A stretch of 21,894 bases of DNA from a virus, in IMG/VR virus record IMGVR_UViG_3300047546_001939, positions 1 through 21,894 of that record; one strand, 5' to 3'. Positions 4,004 to 21,797 of this stretch are shown one piece after another; position 1 is the stretch's first letter; each line of letters starts with the position of its first letter. A model generated the notes under the pieces. It was not told the origin of the DNA and did no database searches. It saw only the letters and a list, made by a program, of their open reading frames with translations. The position numbers were made by a program, and so were the translations under genes.

Positions 4004-4215
4004 GTGATGTCAAATCAATCCTCAATAGAATCAAACAACTTACATATTACGAAGTTGCAGTCGAGCTGTATGAACCAATTCAATTTCATGGTACAATACC
4101 GTTTGACCTAGAGATATCAGGTAATATGGTAGTTGCTCAGGTCCTTGCTAATTCGTACGAAGAAGCAGAACAAAAACTTTTGACATTCTTATTTGAAGGT
4201 GATCGTGATGATTAA
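4000..4215 (+). CDS. Hypothetical phage protein
   Basis: A 71-residue protein starting at ATG 4000 in an ATGA overlap. It has an alternating hydrophobic pattern (YYEVAVELYEPIQFHGTIPF) typical of beta strands and a C-terminal helix (SYEEAEQKLLTFLFEG). No recognised family. It overlaps the next gene by 8 bases. Confidence 0.65.
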   Translation: MSDVKSILNRIKQLTYYEVAVELYEPIQFHGTIPFDLEISGNMVVAQVLANSYEEAEQKLLTFLFEGDRDD

Positions 4216-4456
4216 AGACCGTGCTTTTATTCAAAGAAAGATGGATCACTATAATAAATGGATGCTAGATACTACTAGAGATCCTAATTCCAGGTATCCA
4301 GGGTTCCCGGAAGAGATTGCAATGGAATTTGCTCGTAAAGAGTTCGTTCGTGAGTTTCTTTCTCGTCCTAAAAAAGGAAAGGTCAAGCATGAAAAAGATA
4401 TTTGCGGAACTAGCACTGAAAGCAGTTGCTCATCCAGTTCAACTATTCACCCCTAA
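4208..4456 (+). CDS. Hypothetical phage protein with unusually long 3' overlap
   Basis: An 82-residue ORF starting at ATG 4208 inside the end of the previous gene. Residues 1-55 look like a normal helical protein (AFIQRKMDHYNKWMLD, PEEIAMEFARKEFVREFL). The last about 23 residues are Ser/Thr/Cys-rich and lie in a 68-base overlap with the gene at 4389, so this tail may be a recent extension or indicate a mutated stop. Function unknown. Confidence 0.55.
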   Translation: MIKDRAFIQRKMDHYNKWMLDTTRDPNSRYPGFPEEIAMEFARKEFVREFLSRPKKGKVKHEKDICGTSTESSCSSSSTIHP

Positions 4457-6202: not shown

Positions 6203-6610
6203 ATGATTACGGATTGGTTACCTGCTGGTAAGTATTGGGTTGGTGATTTGTGCTATGTGATGCATGAAGAGTGGGATGAGGTTTGTGGACTCTTCTTCAA
6301 AGGTCGTGACGATCACGGATGCAATGAAGGACTGTTTACATTGAAGGACGGCCGTAAGTTCGTTTCATTCAATACTAAATGGGGTGACGGTGGATACTAT
6401 GATGAAGCCGGAAACGAGTACGGTGTTGATGCTGGTTTGATTGGTTGTATTTTACTTTCTGATATAAAGAACAATGATCAGGATCATTTGGAAGGTGGTC
6501 ATGTTCATGAATTCATTTCACCGTTCAACTGTTCAGGCGGTCGTAGCGAGCAAGGACGAGATTGGGACGGTGTAATTAGAATTGGTAATGTTGAGATTGC
6601 AACAGACTAA
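6203..6610 (+). CDS. Conserved phage protein (PAGKYWVGDLCYV family)
   Basis: A 135-residue protein preceded by an AGGA site. The N-terminal block LPAGKYWVGDLCYVMHEEWD and the middle FVSFNTKWGDGGYYDEAGNEYGVDAG match an uncharacterised family I recall from diverse phages, where P-G-x-Y-x-[IV]-G-D-P/L-C-Y is the signature. It is Gly/Asp-rich and predicted beta-rich, with no clear catalytic set. The last codons lie only about 12 bases before the first paired base of the tmRNA acceptor piece, so both may share a transcript. Confidence 0.8.
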   Translation: MITDWLPAGKYWVGDLCYVMHEEWDEVCGLFFKGRDDHGCNEGLFTLKDGRKFVSFNTKWGDGGYYDEAGNEYGVDAGLIGCILLSDIKNNDQDHLEGGHVHEFISPFNCSGGRSEQGRDWDGVIRIGNVEIATD

Positions 6611-6621
6611 ATAAAATATAT

Positions 6622-6685
6622 TGCTGTATGAAGCAAAGAGAAAAGTGTTCTGGACGCGGGGGGCAGTTCCCCGCCACCTCCACCA
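6622..6685 (+). ncRNA. ssrA: Permuted tmRNA, acceptor (3') piece
   Basis: The 3' end of a tmRNA, encoded upstream of the 5' end. CCA is at 6683-6685 with discriminator A6682. CACCTCC (6675-6681) pairs with GGGGGTG at 7045-7051, giving a 7-bp acceptor stem with a G3-U wobble (G7047-U6679), the alanyl-tRNA synthetase identity pair. GGAC (6652-6655) precedes the T stem, as in E. coli tmRNA. The T stem is GCGGGG/CCCCGC (6656-6661/6669-6674) with loop GGCAGTT, not the usual TTCRANY. Helix 2 strands TGTTCT (6646-6651) and TGCTGT (6622-6627) pair with AGGGCA (7065-7070) and ACAGCA (7087-7092). The 5' boundary is a minimum estimate; it should be fixed by RNase processing. Confidence 0.92.
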
Positions 6686-6688
6686 AAT

Positions 6689-6696
6689 TATAAATA
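6689..6696 (+). promoter_or_regulatory. T4-type late promoter for the HNH gene
   Basis: TATAAATA, an exact match to the T4 late promoter consensus, 27 bases before the HNH ATG and only 3 bases after the tmRNA CCA end. It would be read by host polymerase carrying a gp55-type sigma and a gp33-type coactivator. Transcription from here would cover the HNH gene and the tmRNA coding piece but not the acceptor piece. Confidence 0.75.
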
Positions 6697-6723
6697 CATG
6701 ATCAACAATAAAGGAGTTCATGT

Positions 6724-7098
6724 ATGTTTGACAGGAAGGCGTTCAAGAAGCAGTGGGATAAGGAAAGACGCGACTACAACAACGCGCTCGTGAGGCGTTG
6801 GAAGATGCGTAAAGGGTGTGCATGTTGTGGATACAAGACTCACCACGCTGCGCTAGTGCTGGACCATATAGATCCAACCACAAAGTGCTCAACGTTGAGT
6901 AAACTACGCAAATCCTACAACCCTGCTTGGTCGAACGATCGACTGAAAAAAGAGCTGGCCAAGTGCCAAATCTTGTGCGCAAACTGTCATCACGTTCGAA
7001 CCTATGATGAAGGTCATCATTGGAACGAGCTAAATTCTAGTTACGGGGGTGAAACAGGTTCGACAGGGCAAAGAGTAACAGAGTGGACAGCACAGTAG
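6724..7098 (+). CDS. HNH endonuclease inside the permuted tmRNA spacer
   Basis: A 124-residue HNH nuclease with a two-CxxC zinc frame. It has a basic N-terminus, CACCGY (first CxxC), LVLDHIDPTTK (the His-Asp-His core, H-I-D), a helical stretch, then LCANCHHVRTYDEGHH, giving the second CxxC and the final catalytic His. Such small enzymes cut DNA and often act as free-standing homing endonucleases in phages. AAGGAG lies about 7 bases before ATG 6724. The gene fills the spacer between the tmRNA acceptor and coding pieces, and its last about 17 codons (from 7045) are also tmRNA sequence; the nuclease domain itself ends before that overlap. It could instead be a nuclease for packaging or host DNA degradation, but its location favours homing. 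Confidence 0.88.
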   Translation: MFDRKAFKKQWDKERRDYNNALVRRWKMRKGCACCGYKTHHAALVLDHIDPTTKCSTLSKLRKSYNPAWSNDRLKKELAKCQILCANCHHVRTYDEGHHWNELNSSYGGETGSTGQRVTEWTAQ

Positions 7099-7212
7099 GC
7101 GATGACTGTAAATCAAGCAAATAAAGTAAAAGCAAACGATGAACGCTTTTTGATGGCTGCGTAAGCGCCATCGGAGTTTTGATAGTTGAACTTAGCAACA
7201 GAATCAACTATC
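7045..7212 (+). ncRNA. ssrA: Permuted tmRNA, coding (5') piece, tag ANDERFLMAA
   Basis: The 5' piece starts GGGGGTG (acceptor strand), followed by the D-loop-like AACAGGTTCGAC (compare CTGGATTCGAC in E. coli). Helix 2 strands follow at 7065-7070 and 7087-7092, then a small stem ACAGT/ACTGT (7092-7096/7105-7109) where PK1 is expected. TAAATCAAGCAAATAAAGTA leads into the resume codon GCA at 7132. The tag frame 7132-7161 reads ANDERFLMAA, stop TAA 7162-7164; E. coli has ANDENYALAA. The stop sits in a hairpin GATGGC/GCCATC (7152-7157/7167-7172), matching helix 5. A further 9-bp stem GATAGTTGA/TCAACTATC (7181-7189/7204-7212) is probably part of the next pseudoknot. The 3' boundary is an estimate. 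Confidence 0.93.
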
Positions 7213-10025: not shown

Positions 10026-10580
10026 ATGAATTCTAATTTGAAAGATTTTATATTCAAGAAAAACTGCATTGATACCAACGAATGTCAGCAAATACTTGAA
10101 TCTATAAAAAAACAAGAGTGGCAAAAGCACGAGTGGTATAATTACCACCGTGATAGGTTTCACAGCTACTATGAGAAAGAATTAAACGTTCTTTTTAATG
10201 ACGATTTCTCAAAAGAGATTTTATCAAAACATATAATCAGTACTCTACATGAGTATTGTACGTTTGTTGGTGAGAAGACGTTTGTGCATAAATTCAGCGA
10301 TGTCAGATTCAATCATTATCCAGTTGGTACAATGATGAGAAAGCATTTTGATCACATCTATTCTATATTTGATGGCAACCTCAAAGGAATCCCAATACTT
10401 TCGATTGTTGGTCTATTGAACGATGATTATGAAGGTGGTGAATTTGTTTTTTCTGATGATTATAGCTTCAAGTTAGAGTCTGGTGATATAATGATATTTC
10501 CATCTAACTTTCTATATCAACATGAGGTAAAGGAAGTTACAAAAGGAGATAGATATTCTTTTGTATCTTGGGCTTTCTAA
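10026..10580 (+). CDS. 2OG-Fe(II) oxygenase, prolyl-4-hydroxylase-like
   Basis: A 184-residue single-domain enzyme. The Fe(II) triad is visible: His107 and Asp109 in RKHFDH, and His166 in YQHEV. Arg176 in KGDRYSFVSW should bind the 2-oxoglutarate carboxylate. The segment GLLNDDYEGGEFVF between them is the standard P4H-type core. The family uses 2-oxoglutarate and O2 to hydroxylate protein or small-molecule substrates. It lies in the fibre cluster just after a proline-rich small protein; hydroxylation of a virion protein is possible but unproven. The ribosome site is weak. Confidence 0.9.
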   Translation: MNSNLKDFIFKKNCIDTNECQQILESIKKQEWQKHEWYNYHRDRFHSYYEKELNVLFNDDFSKEILSKHIISTLHEYCTFVGEKTFVHKFSDVRFNHYPVGTMMRKHFDHIYSIFDGNLKGIPILSIVGLLNDDYEGGEFVFSDDYSFKLESGDIMIFPSNFLYQHEVKEVTKGDRYSFVSWAF

Positions 10581-10614
10581 TTTATAACATTAACCAAACG
10601 TTTAAGAGATTATT

Positions 10615-11730
10615 ATGAATACAGTGGAATCATTTGAAAAGAATAGGTATGTTCATTTGGAAGACTTTCTTGCAGTTGATTCGTGCCATGAGTTGACAGA
10701 AGCACTGAAACAGCTTGTCAAAGAACAGCAAACTGTTAAAGACGAACAATGTCCAAAGTCAGAAGCCATTCACGGATCTGCAACTTTTGATAAATTGCTA
10801 GTTGATCTACTACCACACTTTGAAGCGGCATCAGGTAAAAAACTACACCCAACTTATTCATATGCTAGGTTATATGCTCCCGGTGATGAACTAAAGAATC
10901 ATACAGATAGACCGTCTTGTGAAATATCCGCCACGGTGACGCTCGGATTCGACGGCGACGTGTGGCCAATCTTTATGGGTAACAAAGACAAGTCAATAAA
11001 GAATAAAATTAAAATGAAGGTTGGTGATGCTGTGATGTACCGGGGTTGTGAGGTGCATCACTGGCGTAAGAAGTATACACAGGGTAAGTGGCAAGCTCAA
11101 GTATTTCTTCACTATGTTGATGCTAACGGTCCTCATGCTGAGTGGAAGTTTGATAAAAGACCAAGTTTGAATTTACCGAATGAACAACAAGAGTTGCGCT
11201 ATAGAGTTTATCAAGACATACTGACACCAGATGCCTGTGATATGTTGATCCGTCTTTACACAAGCGATAAAACAGAAAAACAACCTCCTGTAATAGGAAC
11301 GGGTGGTGGAACAATCAACAGGAGTATTCGCAATGTTGAACGAGTAATGCTACCAACATATAAGGATATTGGTGGTCGACTTGCAGCAGTTGGACTATCT
11401 GCTAACCACCATGCGTGGCAATTTGATATCACTCATGCCAACCAAGCAGAGTTTTTAATCTATCCAGCTGGCGGGCGGTATCAGGCTCATACAGATACAT
11501 TCTTAGCACACACTGAAGAATGTCGTAAACTGACAGTACTTGCCTTTTTGAATGATGATTTCAAAGGCGGTAGATTCTTCATTCAAGACGGGCATGAGCG
11601 GCACTATCCGCCTCAAGCAAAAGGAACAGTATTAGTATTCCCGTCATTTATTATGCACGGTGTAGAGGATATTGAGGAAGGTCAGAGATGCTCTGTTGTT
11701 TGTTGGATGGTTGGTAAGTTCTTCAAGTAA
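10615..11730 (+). CDS. Tandem two-domain 2OG-Fe(II) oxygenase
   Basis: A 371-residue protein with two complete oxygenase domains. Domain 1 (about 1-185) has His96-Thr97-Asp98 (KNHTDRP), a distal His at 148/149 (EVHHW) and Lys158 as the probable 2OG anchor; its core GFDGDVWPIFMG is divergent. Domain 2 (about 190-371) has His292-Thr293-Asp294 (QAHTDTF), FLNDDFKGGRFF, His348 (IMHGVED) and Arg358 (EGQRCSVVCWM), a canonical P4H pattern. Fusion of two such domains is unusual; domain 1 may bind or modify a different substrate. The ribosome site is weak (AAGAGA), and a late promoter for the next fibre gene starts directly after the stop. Confidence 0.9.
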   Translation: MNTVESFEKNRYVHLEDFLAVDSCHELTEALKQLVKEQQTVKDEQCPKSEAIHGSATFDKLLVDLLPHFEAASGKKLHPTYSYARLYAPGDELKNHTDRPSCEISATVTLGFDGDVWPIFMGNKDKSIKNKIKMKVGDAVMYRGCEVHHWRKKYTQGKWQAQVFLHYVDANGPHAEWKFDKRPSLNLPNEQQELRYRVYQDILTPDACDMLIRLYTSDKTEKQPPVIGTGGGTINRSIRNVERVMLPTYKDIGGRLAAVGLSANHHAWQFDITHANQAEFLIYPAGGRYQAHTDTFLAHTEECRKLTVLAFLNDDFKGGRFFIQDGHERHYPPQAKGTVLVFPSFIMHGVEDIEEGQRCSVVCWMVGKFFK

Positions 11731-14788: not shown

Positions 14789-15363
14789 CAGATTACGAAG
14801 CGTATAAAGTTTACTGCGCTCTCAAAAGACACTTTCAATCACAGACATACGATTACTTTAAGTACAACGGTAAGGTACGTACCTCGTATGCTACTTTTGA
14901 AAAGCGTCCAGATAAATACTTCTTCTCGAAGTTGGCAAAGCATAAAGACATCATTGGGTTCCTTGTTGCTAATTTTGTTAATGGGGATAGATGGGTTGGA
15001 GATCTCGTCAATGAGCAAGTCGCTGAGAAGGCATATAGAGATTGGTTGATGAGAAAGCAATCAATGTCTTATGTTTTTAAAAACGATCTTGGTAAGATTG
15101 ATGACCTCATAGAGAGTCTGAAGGTAGTTGATAACCAACATCCAGCGTTGTTTAAGCTATATCTTTCCAAAGAGATAAGTGCAGAAACGGTTATCATCAT
15201 CAACAAGATACAACGGTTCTTTGGATACTGGACAAAGAATTTAAAGAATTGTATTGTGTGGCAAGAGGAGAAAAACAAGTTACAAAAACTTGCTCCGTTT
15301 GTTGAATATGATGAGAAGTATAAACAAATACTGATAGAAAGTTTTAAAAATGCAACTAGTTGA
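14785..15363 (+). CDS. 59: gp59-like replicative helicase loader
   Basis: A 192-residue protein. The N-terminal YKVYCALKRHFQSQTYDYFK and RPDKYFFSKLAKHKDI match T4 gp59 (VYKLYLMIKQHMNGKYDVIK; RRDKYFFQKL), and GDRWVGDL matches QDAWIGDI. gp59 loads the gp41 helicase onto gp32-covered forked DNA. T4 gp59 is about 217 residues, so this version is slightly shorter. It lies between gp33 and gp32 as in T4, although two oxygenase-like genes separate it from gp32. Translation is probably coupled to gp33. Confidence 0.9.
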   Translation: MTDYEAYKVYCALKRHFQSQTYDYFKYNGKVRTSYATFEKRPDKYFFSKLAKHKDIIGFLVANFVNGDRWVGDLVNEQVAEKAYRDWLMRKQSMSYVFKNDLGKIDDLIESLKVVDNQHPALFKLYLSKEISAETVIIINKIQRFFGYWTKNLKNCIVWQEEKNKLQKLAPFVEYDEKYKQILIESFKNATS

Positions 15364-15955
15364 TTTGATTAAGTGTTATGATAATGTTATTCCAGATCAC
15401 TACTGTGATTACTTTGTTCAGTTCTACGATAATCATTCCGATAAAGCCACAAGATATAATAGCAGTGATTACGATCAAGCACCAGACTTCTCAGAGTTGA
15501 TATTTACAACATTTTCTAACAATCCAGAACACGTCAGATTCAATAATCATGTTGCTGGAATGCTTGATACCGTTGCTCAAAGATACAGTCAAAGTCTTCC
15601 TCTGACTAATAATTTCTTTCCTAAAAAGTACTCATTTGAGTTTTTAAGAATCAAGAAATATAACAATGACGGTCTTGATGAATTCAGGTCACATTGTGAT
15701 GCTGATAGTATTTGCAGCAGCGCGAGGTTCATGAATATCTTTTGTTATCTCAATGATGTTGAGGAGGGTGGTGAGACAGACTTTCCAGATTTTGGAATTT
15801 CGTTTAAACCTAAAAAAGGATCGGTTATTGCTTTTCCTCCCTACTGGTTTTTTCCACACCAAGGAAATAAGCCAATATCTGGTCCCAAATATTTACTAGC
15901 AACAAACCTTCACCATTCCATCTGTTCAGATTGTCACGGATGTTTGGTTACATAA
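15350..15955 (+). CDS. 2OG-Fe(II) oxygenase-like protein (tandem copy A, intact)
   Basis: A 201-residue protein overlapping the end of gp59 by 14 bases. His115 and Asp117 (RSHCDAD), YLNDVEEGGETDFP, His170 (WFFPHQG) and Lys180 (SGPKYLL) make a complete P4H-like Fe(II)/2-oxoglutarate set. A Lys in place of the usual Arg is accepted in several such enzymes. The C-terminus is Cys/His-rich (HHSICSDCHGC) and may bind another metal. The following gene is a clear paralogue that has lost these residues. The substrate is unknown. Confidence 0.85.
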   Translation: MQLVDLIKCYDNVIPDHYCDYFVQFYDNHSDKATRYNSSDYDQAPDFSELIFTTFSNNPEHVRFNNHVAGMLDTVAQRYSQSLPLTNNFFPKKYSFEFLRIKKYNNDGLDEFRSHCDADSICSSARFMNIFCYLNDVEEGGETDFPDFGISFKPKKGSVIAFPPYWFFPHQGNKPISGPKYLLATNLHHSICSDCHGCLVT

Positions 15956-15956
15956 T

Positions 15957-16601
15957 ATGAATATTACTAAGTTTATCAAAGTATATCAAGAAGTCTTTAC
16001 AGAAGATTTTTGTAAGACAATGACCAGAAGGACAGATTCCAATGAGTTGGAGAGTGTCGAATATTCTAAGAATCCAAACGACAACTATAATTGCAATGCA
16101 ATAATTCAATCTAATAAGACTGTCAAGTTCTATGATGGCCATCCAAAAGGAACTGTTGAAAACATCAGTCTTTTCATGTTCAAACGCATAGACATAGCAA
16201 TCAAACATTACATACAAAATTTAGGATATGAAAATCCATTTCATCCAACCAGGTACACTTATGAGGCGATTACTTTGTCAAGATATTTGAACAATGACAA
16301 AGATGAGTATGGTTTGCATATAGCAAGTGATTGTGTCTGTTCTTCTTCTAAGACCTTGATGGTTATTGGATTACTTAATAATGTTGAGGAAGGTGGAGAA
16401 ATAAGCTTTCCAGACTTCGATGTGGATATTAAGTTGGATTTGGGATCAATACTAATATTTCCAAGCAATTGGATGTTTCCTTTCAAAATAAACAAACCAA
16501 TATCAAACCCACAATACATTTTCAATACTTTCACTCATTTTGCTGATTCGTGTAATCAACCAGATATTTGCTTACATCCTATTCATAAAAAAACAAGTTG
16601 A
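15957..16601 (+). CDS. Oxygenase-like protein without the metal triad (tandem copy B)
   Basis: A 214-residue paralogue of the gene at 15350. Aligned blocks are DEYGLHIASDCVCSS with DEFRSHCDADSICSS, LLNNVEEGGEISFPDF with YLNDVEEGGETDFPDF, and FPSNWMFPFKINKPISNPQY with FPPYWFFPHQGNKPISGPKY. His121 remains, but the Asp position is Ala123, the distal His is Phe176 and the 2OG-binding Lys is Gln186. A working Fe(II) enzyme is therefore unlikely. Intact reading frame and conserved fold motifs argue for a retained non-catalytic role, such as partner of copy A. Confidence 0.82.
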   Translation: MNITKFIKVYQEVFTEDFCKTMTRRTDSNELESVEYSKNPNDNYNCNAIIQSNKTVKFYDGHPKGTVENISLFMFKRIDIAIKHYIQNLGYENPFHPTRYTYEAITLSRYLNNDKDEYGLHIASDCVCSSSKTLMVIGLLNNVEEGGEISFPDFDVDIKLDLGSILIFPSNWMFPFKINKPISNPQYIFNTFTHFADSCNQPDICLHPIHKKTS

Positions 16602-16693: not shown

Positions 16694-17611
16694 ATGTCAT
16701 TTTCTAATCTCAAAAAGTCTTCAAAGACTAGTCTCGAGAAAATCACCCAGCAAGTAAACAAACTCGCAGCACCGGAAGGTGGAGCACGCGAGAATGATAC
16801 ACGCTTCTGGCAACCAGAAGTAGATAAGTCCGGTAACGGCTTTGCTGTCATTCGATTCCTACCAGCACCTGATGGTGAAGATGTTCCGTTTGTTCGTATC
16901 TTCGAACACGGCTTCCAAGGCCCTACTGGCAAATGGTATATCGAAAAGTCTCTTACTACTTTAGGTAGGCAAGATCCAGTTTCTGAATACAATAGCCAAT
17001 TGTGGGCAACTGGTATTCAGGCAAATCAAGATCAAGTACGCAAACAAAAGCGTAAGCTGAATTTCATCAGCAATATTATGGTTATCAGTGATAAGGCACA
17101 TCCAGAGAACGAAGGCAAAGTCTTTTTGTTTAAGTATGGCAAAAAGATCTTCGATAAGCTGAATGCTGCAATGAACCCAGAATTCGAGGATGAGGATCCT
17201 GTGAACCCATTTGATCTTTGGGCTGGTGCAAACTTTAAGTTGAAGATCCGTAAGGTAGAAGGTTATCGCAACTATGACAAGTCTGAGTTTGATAAGCCAG
17301 AGCCATTGAGCGATGATGATGCTGAACTTGAAAAGATTTGGAAGTCAGAGCATTCTTTGAGTGAGTTCTTGAAAGAAGAACACTTCAAGCCATATGATGA
17401 ATTGAAGACTAAACTCTACCGCGTACTTGCATTGGACGGAAGTTCGTCTTCTGTGCAGAATGCATCGTTCGCTAATTTAGATGAGGATGAGGTGGAAGCA
17501 CCAAGACCTCAAAAGACTGCAAAAGCAGCTTCGTCAGCAAAGGAGTCGGCACCGTGGGATTCTGATGAGGATGAAGATCTCGATAAGTTCAAAGAACTAT
17601 TGAACGATTAA
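16694..17611 (+). CDS. 32: gp32-like single-stranded DNA-binding protein
   Basis: A 305-residue protein. The basic N-terminus NLKKSSKTS resembles the T4 LAST motif used for cooperative binding. The core [31 protein letters not shown] and [20 protein letters not shown] matches T4 gp32 ([26 protein letters not shown]). The C-terminus (about 265-305) is acidic with [14 protein letters not shown], the partner-binding tail. It covers ssDNA during replication, recombination and repair and interacts with gp59. The whole protein has no cysteine, so the zinc site of T4 gp32 is absent. AAGGAG lies 6 bases before the ATG. It ends at a bidirectional terminator. Confidence 0.95.
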   Translation: [305 protein letters not shown]

Positions 17612-20172: not shown

Positions 20173-20335
20173 TTTTTGAAGCACTCTCTTGATTCTTAAT
20201 GTGTTGTTTTAGTAACTCTAAAAATATATCTCTTTCAAAAGGAATCATTGATTCAACTTCTGTTATTGAATAATGATGATGCTGAGCCAAAACAAAAATT
20301 ATGTTGTAATAATTTTCTAGGTTATTATGGCTCAG
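20165..20335 (-). CDS. 51: gp51-like baseplate hub assembly protein without an ATG start
   Basis: An open frame of 56 codons between gp26 and the large tail gene, reading ...NYYNIIFVLAQHHHYSITEV then ESMIPFERDIFLELLKQHI. This matches the pattern of gp51-like proteins I recall from T4-like phages (aromatic helix, YHYS-like, then MLPFER[DE][IM]). The only in-frame ATG would leave 27 residues, removing half the domain. A CTG (20335-20333) overlaps the gp26 TGA as CTGA, where an ATGA would be expected. Translation may start there or arise by frameshifting from gp26. gp51 acts catalytically in hub assembly and is not in the virion. Confidence 0.65.
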   Translation of the reverse strand: MSHNNLENYYNIIFVLAQHHHYSITEVESMIPFERDIFLELLKQHIKNQESASKNG

Positions 20336-21042
20336 CCCAAGGTAAAAAAATCTTCAATTGATTTAAGCTCGATTACCCTTTCGGTTCCTTTTTTATTTAC
20401 ATACTCGATCTTATGATAAAGTCTTGGCATTGTATCAAAGAACTTTTCAAATAGCTTCAATACATTTGATGGAAGACTCTCTACAAATTGATCAATCTCT
20501 TCTGGTTTGCTGTCTTTGAAGTTTACTACCTCGTCACCATTAAAATATTGATCCATACATCCTCTAATCATGAAAAACAGAATATCTGTAATCTCATCTT
20601 TCGTGACAACATCGGCCATTAACTTGGCACTTGGATATTTCATAACAATTCCACTGTTTTCGGACAGCTTTACAATATTGCTATGATCTTCACTCTCCGA
20701 TGCATTTACTTCGTCAATATTGATGTGGAAAGTATACATTTCCTCATCTTCAGGATCCTTGTAATTTATCTCAATATCCTCACCAACAGACTTAGCTCTT
20801 AATTTGAGAAAAAGGATCTCCAAATCAAATGAGGAAAGTTCATCTGCGTTTATTACGCTGTCCACGTCACAGTTAATAATAACTTGTTTGATTACGTTAA
20901 TAATATCTTGCTGCTCACCACTTTGTTTGGCCATCAACATTAACTTTTCTTCTTTGACTAAGAAAGGTCTGAATTTGACCATTTGTTTTGTTGACGGAAC
21001 TTTCAACTCAAACACTGGGTGCATTAATTTTGGTAAAGCCAT
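20332..21042 (-). CDS. 26: gp26-like baseplate hub subunit
   Basis: A 236-residue protein with AGGAG before its ATG. The N-terminal MALPKLMHPVFELKVPSTKQ, VKFRPFLVKEEKLMLMAKQS, VINCDVDSVINADELSSFDL and FLKLRAKSVGEDIEI are the signature blocks of the T4_baseplate (gp26) family as I recall from marine T4-like phages. T4 gp26 is about 208 residues. It takes part in central hub assembly. It is co-transcribed with the tail-tube-fold gene upstream and the gp51-like ORF downstream. Confidence 0.88.
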   Translation of the reverse strand: MALPKLMHPVFELKVPSTKQMVKFRPFLVKEEKLMLMAKQSGEQQDIINVIKQVIINCDVDSVINADELSSFDLEILFLKLRAKSVGEDIEINYKDPEDEEMYTFHINIDEVNASESEDHSNIVKLSENSGIVMKYPSAKLMADVVTKDEITDILFFMIRGCMDQYFNGDEVVNFKDSKPEEIDQFVESLPSNVLKLFEKFFDTMPRLYHKIEYVNKKGTERVIELKSIEDFFTLG

Positions 21043-21074: not shown

Positions 21075-21797
21075 TCAAACTTGCCCTGCAATTTGTATAT
21101 CAAATGTCTGATATGTAAAGTTAACAGTAAATTCTGAAACTGAATCGGTTGCGCTTGTCGATAATCCAATATCGCTTATGTTTGTTGGATAGAGTTTTTT
21201 AACACTGTATCTTTTAGTCGGAACAAGTGGTACATCGGGAAGTGACCTGCCTCCAATCAATGAACCAAGAAAAGGTACTCCAGCTGCAGCTGATGCAACT
21301 GATGCTATAGTTTGTAATAAGCCTGCACCTTTGAATTGACCAGGCTTACCGTGATAGACTGTGATTGTCATATCAGTCTGGTAATCTTTTTTGAACGGAT
21401 GTTGATAAGTTTGGTCAGCACCAGGAACCTTATTACTGTTTTGGGTTTGTGGATATATCGATTGAATCCAAGTGTAGAAGAATCCATACACATAGCTATT
21501 TGAGTCGTTGAGAAACGTCAAACTAATATCATTCAATGATCCTCTTACAGGCATTTTAATTGATGGACCAATTCCGTATCTGATAGATTCTGTCGTAGCA
21601 AGATTTAAACCAGGCAAGTTTGCATTCTTGCAAAATAAACTAACCAACTTGCCGTTTTCAGTTTTGTTAATATAAAGAGGTCCGTTAGTGTACTTCCTCA
21701 AAAGGTCAGGAATAGTAATATTGACCTCAAAAAGATTCGGTCTTTCCAAATCATATTTGTGGATTGCTGACTTAAACTCGTTTATATTTAATGGCAT
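21075..21797 (-). CDS. Tail-tube-fold baseplate protein (gp48/gp54/gp19 family)
   Basis: A 240-residue protein. MPLNINEFKSAIHKYDLERP-NLFEV, LVSLFCKNANLPGLNLATTE and GSLNDISLTFLNDSNSYVYG follow the plan of T4 tail-tube-like proteins (RPNLFEV..., C-K-x-A-x-L-P, then [FW]xxTFxND). At 240 residues it is longer than the tube subunit gp19 (163) and has an Ala/Gly-rich insertion (about 165-185). Together with its place before gp26, this suggests a tube-initiating cap such as gp54 or gp48. Which of the two cannot be decided here. The start is coupled (TAATG) to the gene upstream. Confidence 0.75.
   Translation of the reverse strand: MPLNINEFKSAIHKYDLERPNLFEVNITIPDLLRKYTNGPLYINKTENGKLVSLFCKNANLPGLNLATTESIRYGIGPSIKMPVRGSLNDISLTFLNDSNSYVYGFFYTWIQSIYPQTQNSNKVPGADQTYQHPFKKDYQTDMTITVYHGKPGQFKGAGLLQTIASVASAAAGVPFLGSLIGGRSLPDVPLVPTKRYSVKKLYPTNISDIGLSTSATDSVSEFTVNFTYQTFDIQIAGQV

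Follow-up and report, generated by a model that had tools for sequence, protein, structure and literature searches.

A phage-encoded, circularly permuted tmRNA gene with a putative homing-type HNH endonuclease gene in its spacer

Two-piece tmRNAs are already known from phages, 53 of them being counted in the accessible text of PMC9004378. As described in the accessible part of a tmRNA survey (PMC11915505), tRNA-processing enzymes cleave the precursor of a two-piece tmRNA, and base pairing keeps the resulting pieces together. The same part of that survey places homing endonucleases within T-loop group I introns, and reports a tRNA-Ala as well as a repetitive element in the spacers of permuted tmRNAs; no mention of a protein gene in such a spacer was found in it. 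For I-TevI and related endonucleases of T4 phages it has been described that a hairpin blocks translation of the read-through RNA and that a late promoter bypasses this block (PMC2988022).

The permuted tmRNA and its HNH gene

The stretch of DNA analysed here, referred to as the window, comprises a record of 21,894 bases and is a fragment of a T4-like phage genome, in which profile searches identified the following landmarks.

Window 16694-17611: gp32
Window 20332-21042: T4 baseplate protein
Window 21075-21797: tail tube protein

Four putative ORFs resembling 2OG-oxygenases (prolyl-hydroxylases) can moreover be seen by eye in the ORF list at 15350-16601 and 10026-11730 of the window, between fibre-like genes and gp32. 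A DNA search of deposited phages with the tmRNA/HNH region returned no match. The region itself is composed as follows.

6622..6685, + strand: 3' piece of the tmRNA (tRNA-like 3' part), from the RF04321 alignment, the sequence and the lineage alignment; 6622 is the start of the model, not a mapped end
Contents of the 3' piece, + strand: helix-2 strands, GGAC, T-arm (6656-6674), 3' strand of the acceptor stem (6675-6681), A6682 and CCA (6683-6685)
6686..7044, + strand: spacer (intervening segment) of 359 nt, from behind CCA up to the 5' strand of the acceptor stem
6724..7098, + strand: HNH endonuclease ORF of 124 aa (PHROG 2255; homologues in loci L123 and L124)
7045..7212, + strand: 5' piece of the tmRNA (acceptor 5' strand, D-like part, tag frame and 3' structures), the last base being set by the alpha model and not mapped
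7132..7164, + strand: tag reading frame ANDERFLMAA-stop, from the sequence

The first-pass annotation had read this region as a permuted tmRNA whose 3' CCA lies upstream of its 5' end, and had named the Rfam models as a check. Two Rfam models bear it out: RF04321 (tmRNA_permuted) scores 117.9 bits against a cut-off of 47 (E = 7.5e-23) at 6622-7164, is covered completely from model position 1 to 213 and spans the spacer, and the alpha_tmRNA model matches 6566-7212 with 55.5 bits, again across the spacer, so that the two pieces are recovered in permuted order. The acceptor stem and the tag are likewise as annotated, with GGGGGTG at 7045-7051 pairing with CACCTCC at 6675-6681, the G3-U70 pair included, and with an identical ANDERFLMAA peptide being encoded by different codons in a related locus (L288). 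A complete non-permuted ssrA elsewhere, next to which the present pieces could have been taken for a decayed remnant, was not found, nor was any further ssrA, in the 21.9-kb record, which is itself a fragment.

That the HNH gene might nevertheless sit in a dead, decayed tmRNA gene or in an assembly chimera is suggested by a T-stem able to form 6 bp (6656-6661/6669-6674), which is unusual, by the fact that ARAGORN makes no call for this gene, and by the single metagenomic record in which the arrangement occurs. However, the model score is attained across the insert, and the same T-arm recurs in four other loci (L165, L287, L288 and L289), one of which shares the tag in different codons. Furthermore, the four acceptor pairs that are free to vary match without exception across 102 distinct loci from the window's tmRNA lineage, although they occur there in 10 different 5'/3' combinations, while shuffling the arms between the 102 loci yields 32 matches on average and 44 at most. 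The retention of this match in the HNH-bearing window is poorly explained by decay or by a chimeric join, and both were rejected as very improbable in view of the bit score, the pairing of the acceptor arms and the recurring T-arm. The lineage motif is found in at least 120 viral contigs, with the qualification that some IMG/VR contigs in the survey may be host DNA, whereas among 84,980 genomes of bacteria and archaea it has a single hit, on a 3-kb contig, which indicates an essentially phage lineage. As judged from its sequence, the tmRNA of the window is thus intact, phage-encoded and circularly permuted.

The annotated HNH gene in the spacer is equally well founded, as its product matches PHROG 2255 over residues 7-106 (E = 7.9e-24) and the HNH residues CxxC, DH and CxxCH are conserved in two homologues (L123, L124); Pfam profiles left this copy below detection, and a PDB sequence search with the protein as query gave nothing useful. 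What had been overlooked is that the frame has no stop codon within the spacer: its last 54 nt, including the TAG at 7096-7098, lie inside the 5' piece of the tmRNA. The homologue in L123, which is 46% identical, adjoins a gene for the terminase large subunit whose 3'-end codons are repeated downstream, a duplication that would be the typical trace of such insertions. No intron family was matched in an Rfam scan of the window, and the self-splicing intron that defines an intron-encoded endonuclease is accordingly missing here. The HNH gene thus probably codes for a free-standing, homing-type and self-spreading nuclease.

Spacer contents across phage tmRNAs

In line with a mobile gene, the spacer is polymorphic for the nuclease. 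Two close relatives from the same phage group (L133 and L136), in which the upstream gene is 84-85% identical in protein, have tmRNA spacers of 86 and 30 nt without a nuclease, and three loci with the window's T-arm (L165, L287, L288) have spacers of 82, 89 and 121 nt without the HNH gene, a presence/absence pattern as expected of a free-standing homing endonuclease. The search for permuted ssrA with and without the HNH gene that the first-pass annotation had called for thus recovered nuclease-free relatives, while the HNH gene itself was seen in the tmRNA spacer of one record only, no closely related HNH being found in other tmRNA spacers among the surveyed loci. Since the acceptor and the T-arm of L133 and its relatives differ from those of the window, a co-conversion tract around the HNH gene was suspected, but was rejected because L165, L287 and L288 carry the window's T-arm without the HNH gene and the swap is therefore not tied to the nuclease.

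A further locus with the window's T-arm, L289, has a spacer of 453 nt whose opposite strand codes for a LAGLIDADG-motif protein. This protein matches PHROG 5046 (E = 3e-22; the family is labelled HNH there) as well as the Pfam profiles LAGLIDADG_1 (E = 2e-4) and LAGLIDADG_3 (E = 5e-4), both just below their cut-offs. The Rfam match to the permuted tmRNA of L289 spans the insert with 94.2 bits, and gp32 is encoded on this record, too. From these profile matches, two unrelated homing-type nuclease families, HNH and LAGLIDADG-type, are found in one and the same tmRNA slot. The nuclease-free relatives, the LAGLIDADG-type gene of L289 and the terminase-side homologue in L123 together strengthen the reading given by the first-pass annotation, a homing-type nuclease in a removable part of the tmRNA gene, as the best one.

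Nucleases are not the only occupants. Viral loci were gathered via DNA patterns and via the upstream gene; because the survey relies on conserved sequence patterns, it misses diverged tmRNAs and spacers above 2.5 kb. For 284 distinct permuted tmRNAs of viruses the spacer length has a median of 81 nt, and no more than six spacers, three of them near-identical, reach 359 nt, the share of long spacers being no population estimate as part of the patterns was picked for non-standard spacer ends. In 22 of the 25 sequence clusters with spacers of at least 170 nt, an ORF in sense orientation takes up 60% or more of the spacer, compared to an expectation of 2.2 from dinucleotide shuffles (maximum 8) and to 6 on the opposite strand, and a Shine-Dalgarno-like motif follows within 18 nt of CCA in 20 of these 25 clusters versus 14 of the 102 spacers that measure 40-100 nt. 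Homologous pairs of spacer ORFs show purifying selection, with dN/dS values, which come from simple counting over short ORFs, of 0.09 for the DUF6356-family pair L008/L092, 0.13 for L025/L066 and mostly 0.1-0.3 in the MKNPLV family. Known families amongst the spacer ORFs are DUF6356 (E = 4e-11) and a CxxCxxCC domain (E = 1e-6). The cultured phage Melnitz carries in its tmRNA spacer an ORF of 54 aa with GGAG behind CCA, which is related to the spacer ORF of L023 (E = 7e-6) and is unannotated in the deposited record, where only SsrA is given at this place. Two further loci (L294:2738-2811 and L295:10242-10315, - strand) harbour a complete tRNA-Arg (CCG) within the permuted tmRNA spacer. In phages of Stenotrophomonas and Rhodobacter that were recovered through DNA similarity, the permuted tmRNAs show no obvious spacer gene, and a 'spacer' of 1589 nt was dismissed as a chance pairing that was lost under a stricter filter.

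In view of its observed contents, which range from small protein genes and a tRNA-Arg to LAGLIDADG-type and HNH nucleases, the spacer is a tolerated gene site, a broader statement than that of a nuclease home. The survey suggests that spacer protein genes are common in phages with permuted tmRNAs and that they escape annotation since the region is entered as an RNA gene. A homologue of the spacer protein of L216 is located just upstream of ssrA in L314:460-640 (- strand) and ends in the spacer-gene motif TCTTTATGAT; from this pair, genes seem to move into and out of the spacer.

Some loci of the survey have unusual layouts. L163 looks non-permuted by a simple pairing test. For L282:1383-2017 (- strand) the tag given by ARAGORN has 28 residues and is thus unusually long (AKASTNGSFKFSGKGVKLASARREAVLA), L073:1-400 (- strand) has, behind a 5'-piece-like sequence, a separate second 3' piece of a tmRNA (GGAC...CTCCACCA) and possibly represents a duplicated or rearranged ssrA, and the permuted tmRNA of L044 near 4050-4240 has a TTCGAAA-like T-loop instead of the usual alpha-type GGCRGTA but is otherwise alpha-like.

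Alternatively, the HNH gene might be an ordinary free-standing endonuclease gene in neutral intergenic space, with the spacer playing no part in its tolerance or expression. Free-standing HNH genes are indeed common in phages, and T4 has SegB between tRNA genes (PMC2988022). However, the present gene lies inside a tmRNA precursor and overlaps the 5' piece, ORFs in long spacers are far above chance over the 25 clusters and have a ribosome-binding motif just behind CCA, and a second type of nuclease occupies the same slot, all of which makes this explanation improbable.

Expression, maturation and the stop codon in the 5' piece

A spacer that is discarded would offer a tolerated gene site. The precursor would be cut after CCA and, by RNase P, at 7044/7045, after which the pieces would pair, so that a gene inserted between them would leave the RNA undamaged; in the sequences, spacer genes are present while the pairing of both pieces stays intact. 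The first-pass annotation had also proposed that the two RNA pieces might come from different transcripts. For the mature tmRNA this finds no support, as the relatives suggest one precursor, and an additional late RNA would comprise only the HNH gene and the 5' piece. Two elements at the start of the HNH gene bear on such an RNA.

6689..6696, + strand: TATAAATA, T4-type late-promoter-like site, an exact match, with the start expected at about 6702
6694..6725, + strand: possible hairpin with arms 6694-6701 and 6718-6725, the loop containing the Shine-Dalgarno motif (6710-6716) and the 3' arm containing the start codon

The putative late promoter that had been attributed to the nuclease gene is plausibly placed, just after CCA. 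TATAAATA occurs twice in the window versus 1.03 times expected, a count that is suggestive only and by itself no evidence for a late promoter. The hairpin has a predicted folding energy of -8.5 kcal/mol with a z score of -1.67, and 12 of 200 shuffles fold as well, which by itself is insignificant. Its 5' arm ends at 6701, directly ahead of the expected late start, and the HNH start codon is predicted to be unpaired in 5-7% of cases in a long read-through RNA as against 13-58% in an RNA starting at 6702-6703. Because the hairpin and the promoter count are each weak alone, late expression of the HNH gene from TATAAATA at 6689-6696 is rated as about even. An exact TATAAATA is found 60-100 nt before the CCA end in 81 of 186 viral loci outside the window lineage, versus 1 of 186 in a control zone, and suggests that the tmRNA and the spacer gene may be late products in the relatives so preceded; at this distance the window itself has only a two-mismatch version.

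If the HNH gene were expressed mainly late from TATAAATA just behind CCA, the late RNA would lack the 3' piece of the tmRNA, the hairpin arm covering the start codon and the structure that RNase P needs in cis. Without the 3' piece this RNA should not be cleaved by RNase P in cis and should retain the HNH stop codon in the 5' piece, while maturation of a read-through tmRNA precursor would remove this stop. Taken as a whole, an intact two-piece phage tmRNA, whose discarded spacer would serve as a general gene slot and here as the site of a free-standing, homing-type HNH gene expressed late, is in our view a probable reading of the locus.

The position of the stop codon is not peculiar to the window. 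A Shine-Dalgarno-like motif accompanies 38 spacer ORFs. Within the spacer stop 25 of these, 16 of them one base ahead of the 5' piece (TGA of the common TGAT end), and 13 stop within the 5' piece: 11 at +13, on the UAG in GAAATAG, a single one at +30, and at +54 the HNH gene of the window. The spacer ORF of Melnitz stops at +42 of the 5' piece. Conservation at the protein level is seen in two of the families whose frames extend into the 5' piece, with pN/pS values of about 0.16-0.34 in diverged pairs. As such ORFs are recurrent and conserved, the missing spacer stop of the window is no accident of a single sequence. An RNase P cut at the 5' piece would remove the stop codons of all ORFs of this kind.

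This layout allows for a self-limiting circuit, in which RNase P cuts the HNH mRNA ahead of its stop codon, the ribosome stalls and tmRNA tags the nuclease for destruction. It would fit with an HNH frame that is stopless up to the RNase P site and with the repetition of the layout in 12 further surveyed ORFs and in Melnitz, including the two conserved families. However, with 25 of the 38 spacer ORFs stopping ahead of the cut, a non-stop mRNA is unnecessary for spacer genes, and the stops at +13 may merely reflect a conserved UAG in the 5' piece; on the whole, we regard the circuit as tentative and unlikely. Its extension to the spacer as an exchangeable gene cradle, where maturation by RNase P would make non-stop mRNAs and tmRNA would tag and remove the product of the nested gene, is a rather doubtful generalisation. 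The question thereby raised is whether the maturation of tmRNA by RNase P controls translation of the nested gene.

The arfA mRNA loses its stop codon through a cut by RNase III. Control of ArfA by trans-translation (PMC10107115, accessible text) resembles the proposed HNH circuit in that an mRNA stop is lost and tmRNA limits the product, but differs from it in that the cut in the HNH mRNA would be the tmRNA's own maturation by RNase P.

Comparison with known systems

The first-pass annotation had found the arrangement unfamiliar, and this holds for one part of it: permuted tmRNAs of phages have been described before, while protein genes in their spacers appear to be new in the searchable literature, subscription papers lying outside this scope. 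Nor did the searchable literature yield, apart from introns, any protein gene lying within a segment that is removed from a functional RNA.

One close counterpart of the window is Melnitz, a Methylophilales phage (PMC9004378), which according to the accessible text is T4-like with a circularly permuted ssrA, and whose spacer ORF equally reads into the 5' piece; that ORF, however, does not code for a nuclease, and no mention of the spacer gene was found in the accessible text. A foreign gene in a permuted tmRNA spacer, comparable to the tRNA-Arg of L294 and L295, is reported in the accessible part of PMC11915505 in the form of a tRNA-Ala in one nominally archaeal sequence, but this is an RNA gene whereas the HNH gene of the window codes for a protein. 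SegB in the tRNA region of T4 (PMC2988022) is, like the HNH gene, a nuclease gene between segments of stable RNA with possible control by a late promoter and a hairpin. It is located, however, between separate tRNA genes, while the HNH gene lies inside one RNA gene and overlaps it.

The endonucleases in group I introns of tmRNA genes, as far as described in the accessible part of PMC11915505, share with the window the location of a nuclease gene in a removed part of the tmRNA gene. In those cases the removed part is a self-splicing intron in the T-loop and the nuclease is of the LAGLIDADG type, in contrast to the window, where the gene is of the HNH type and resides, with no intron, in a permuted spacer that would be removed by tRNA processing. 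To the known homes of homing endonucleases the permuted tmRNA would thus add a safe site that is free of introns.
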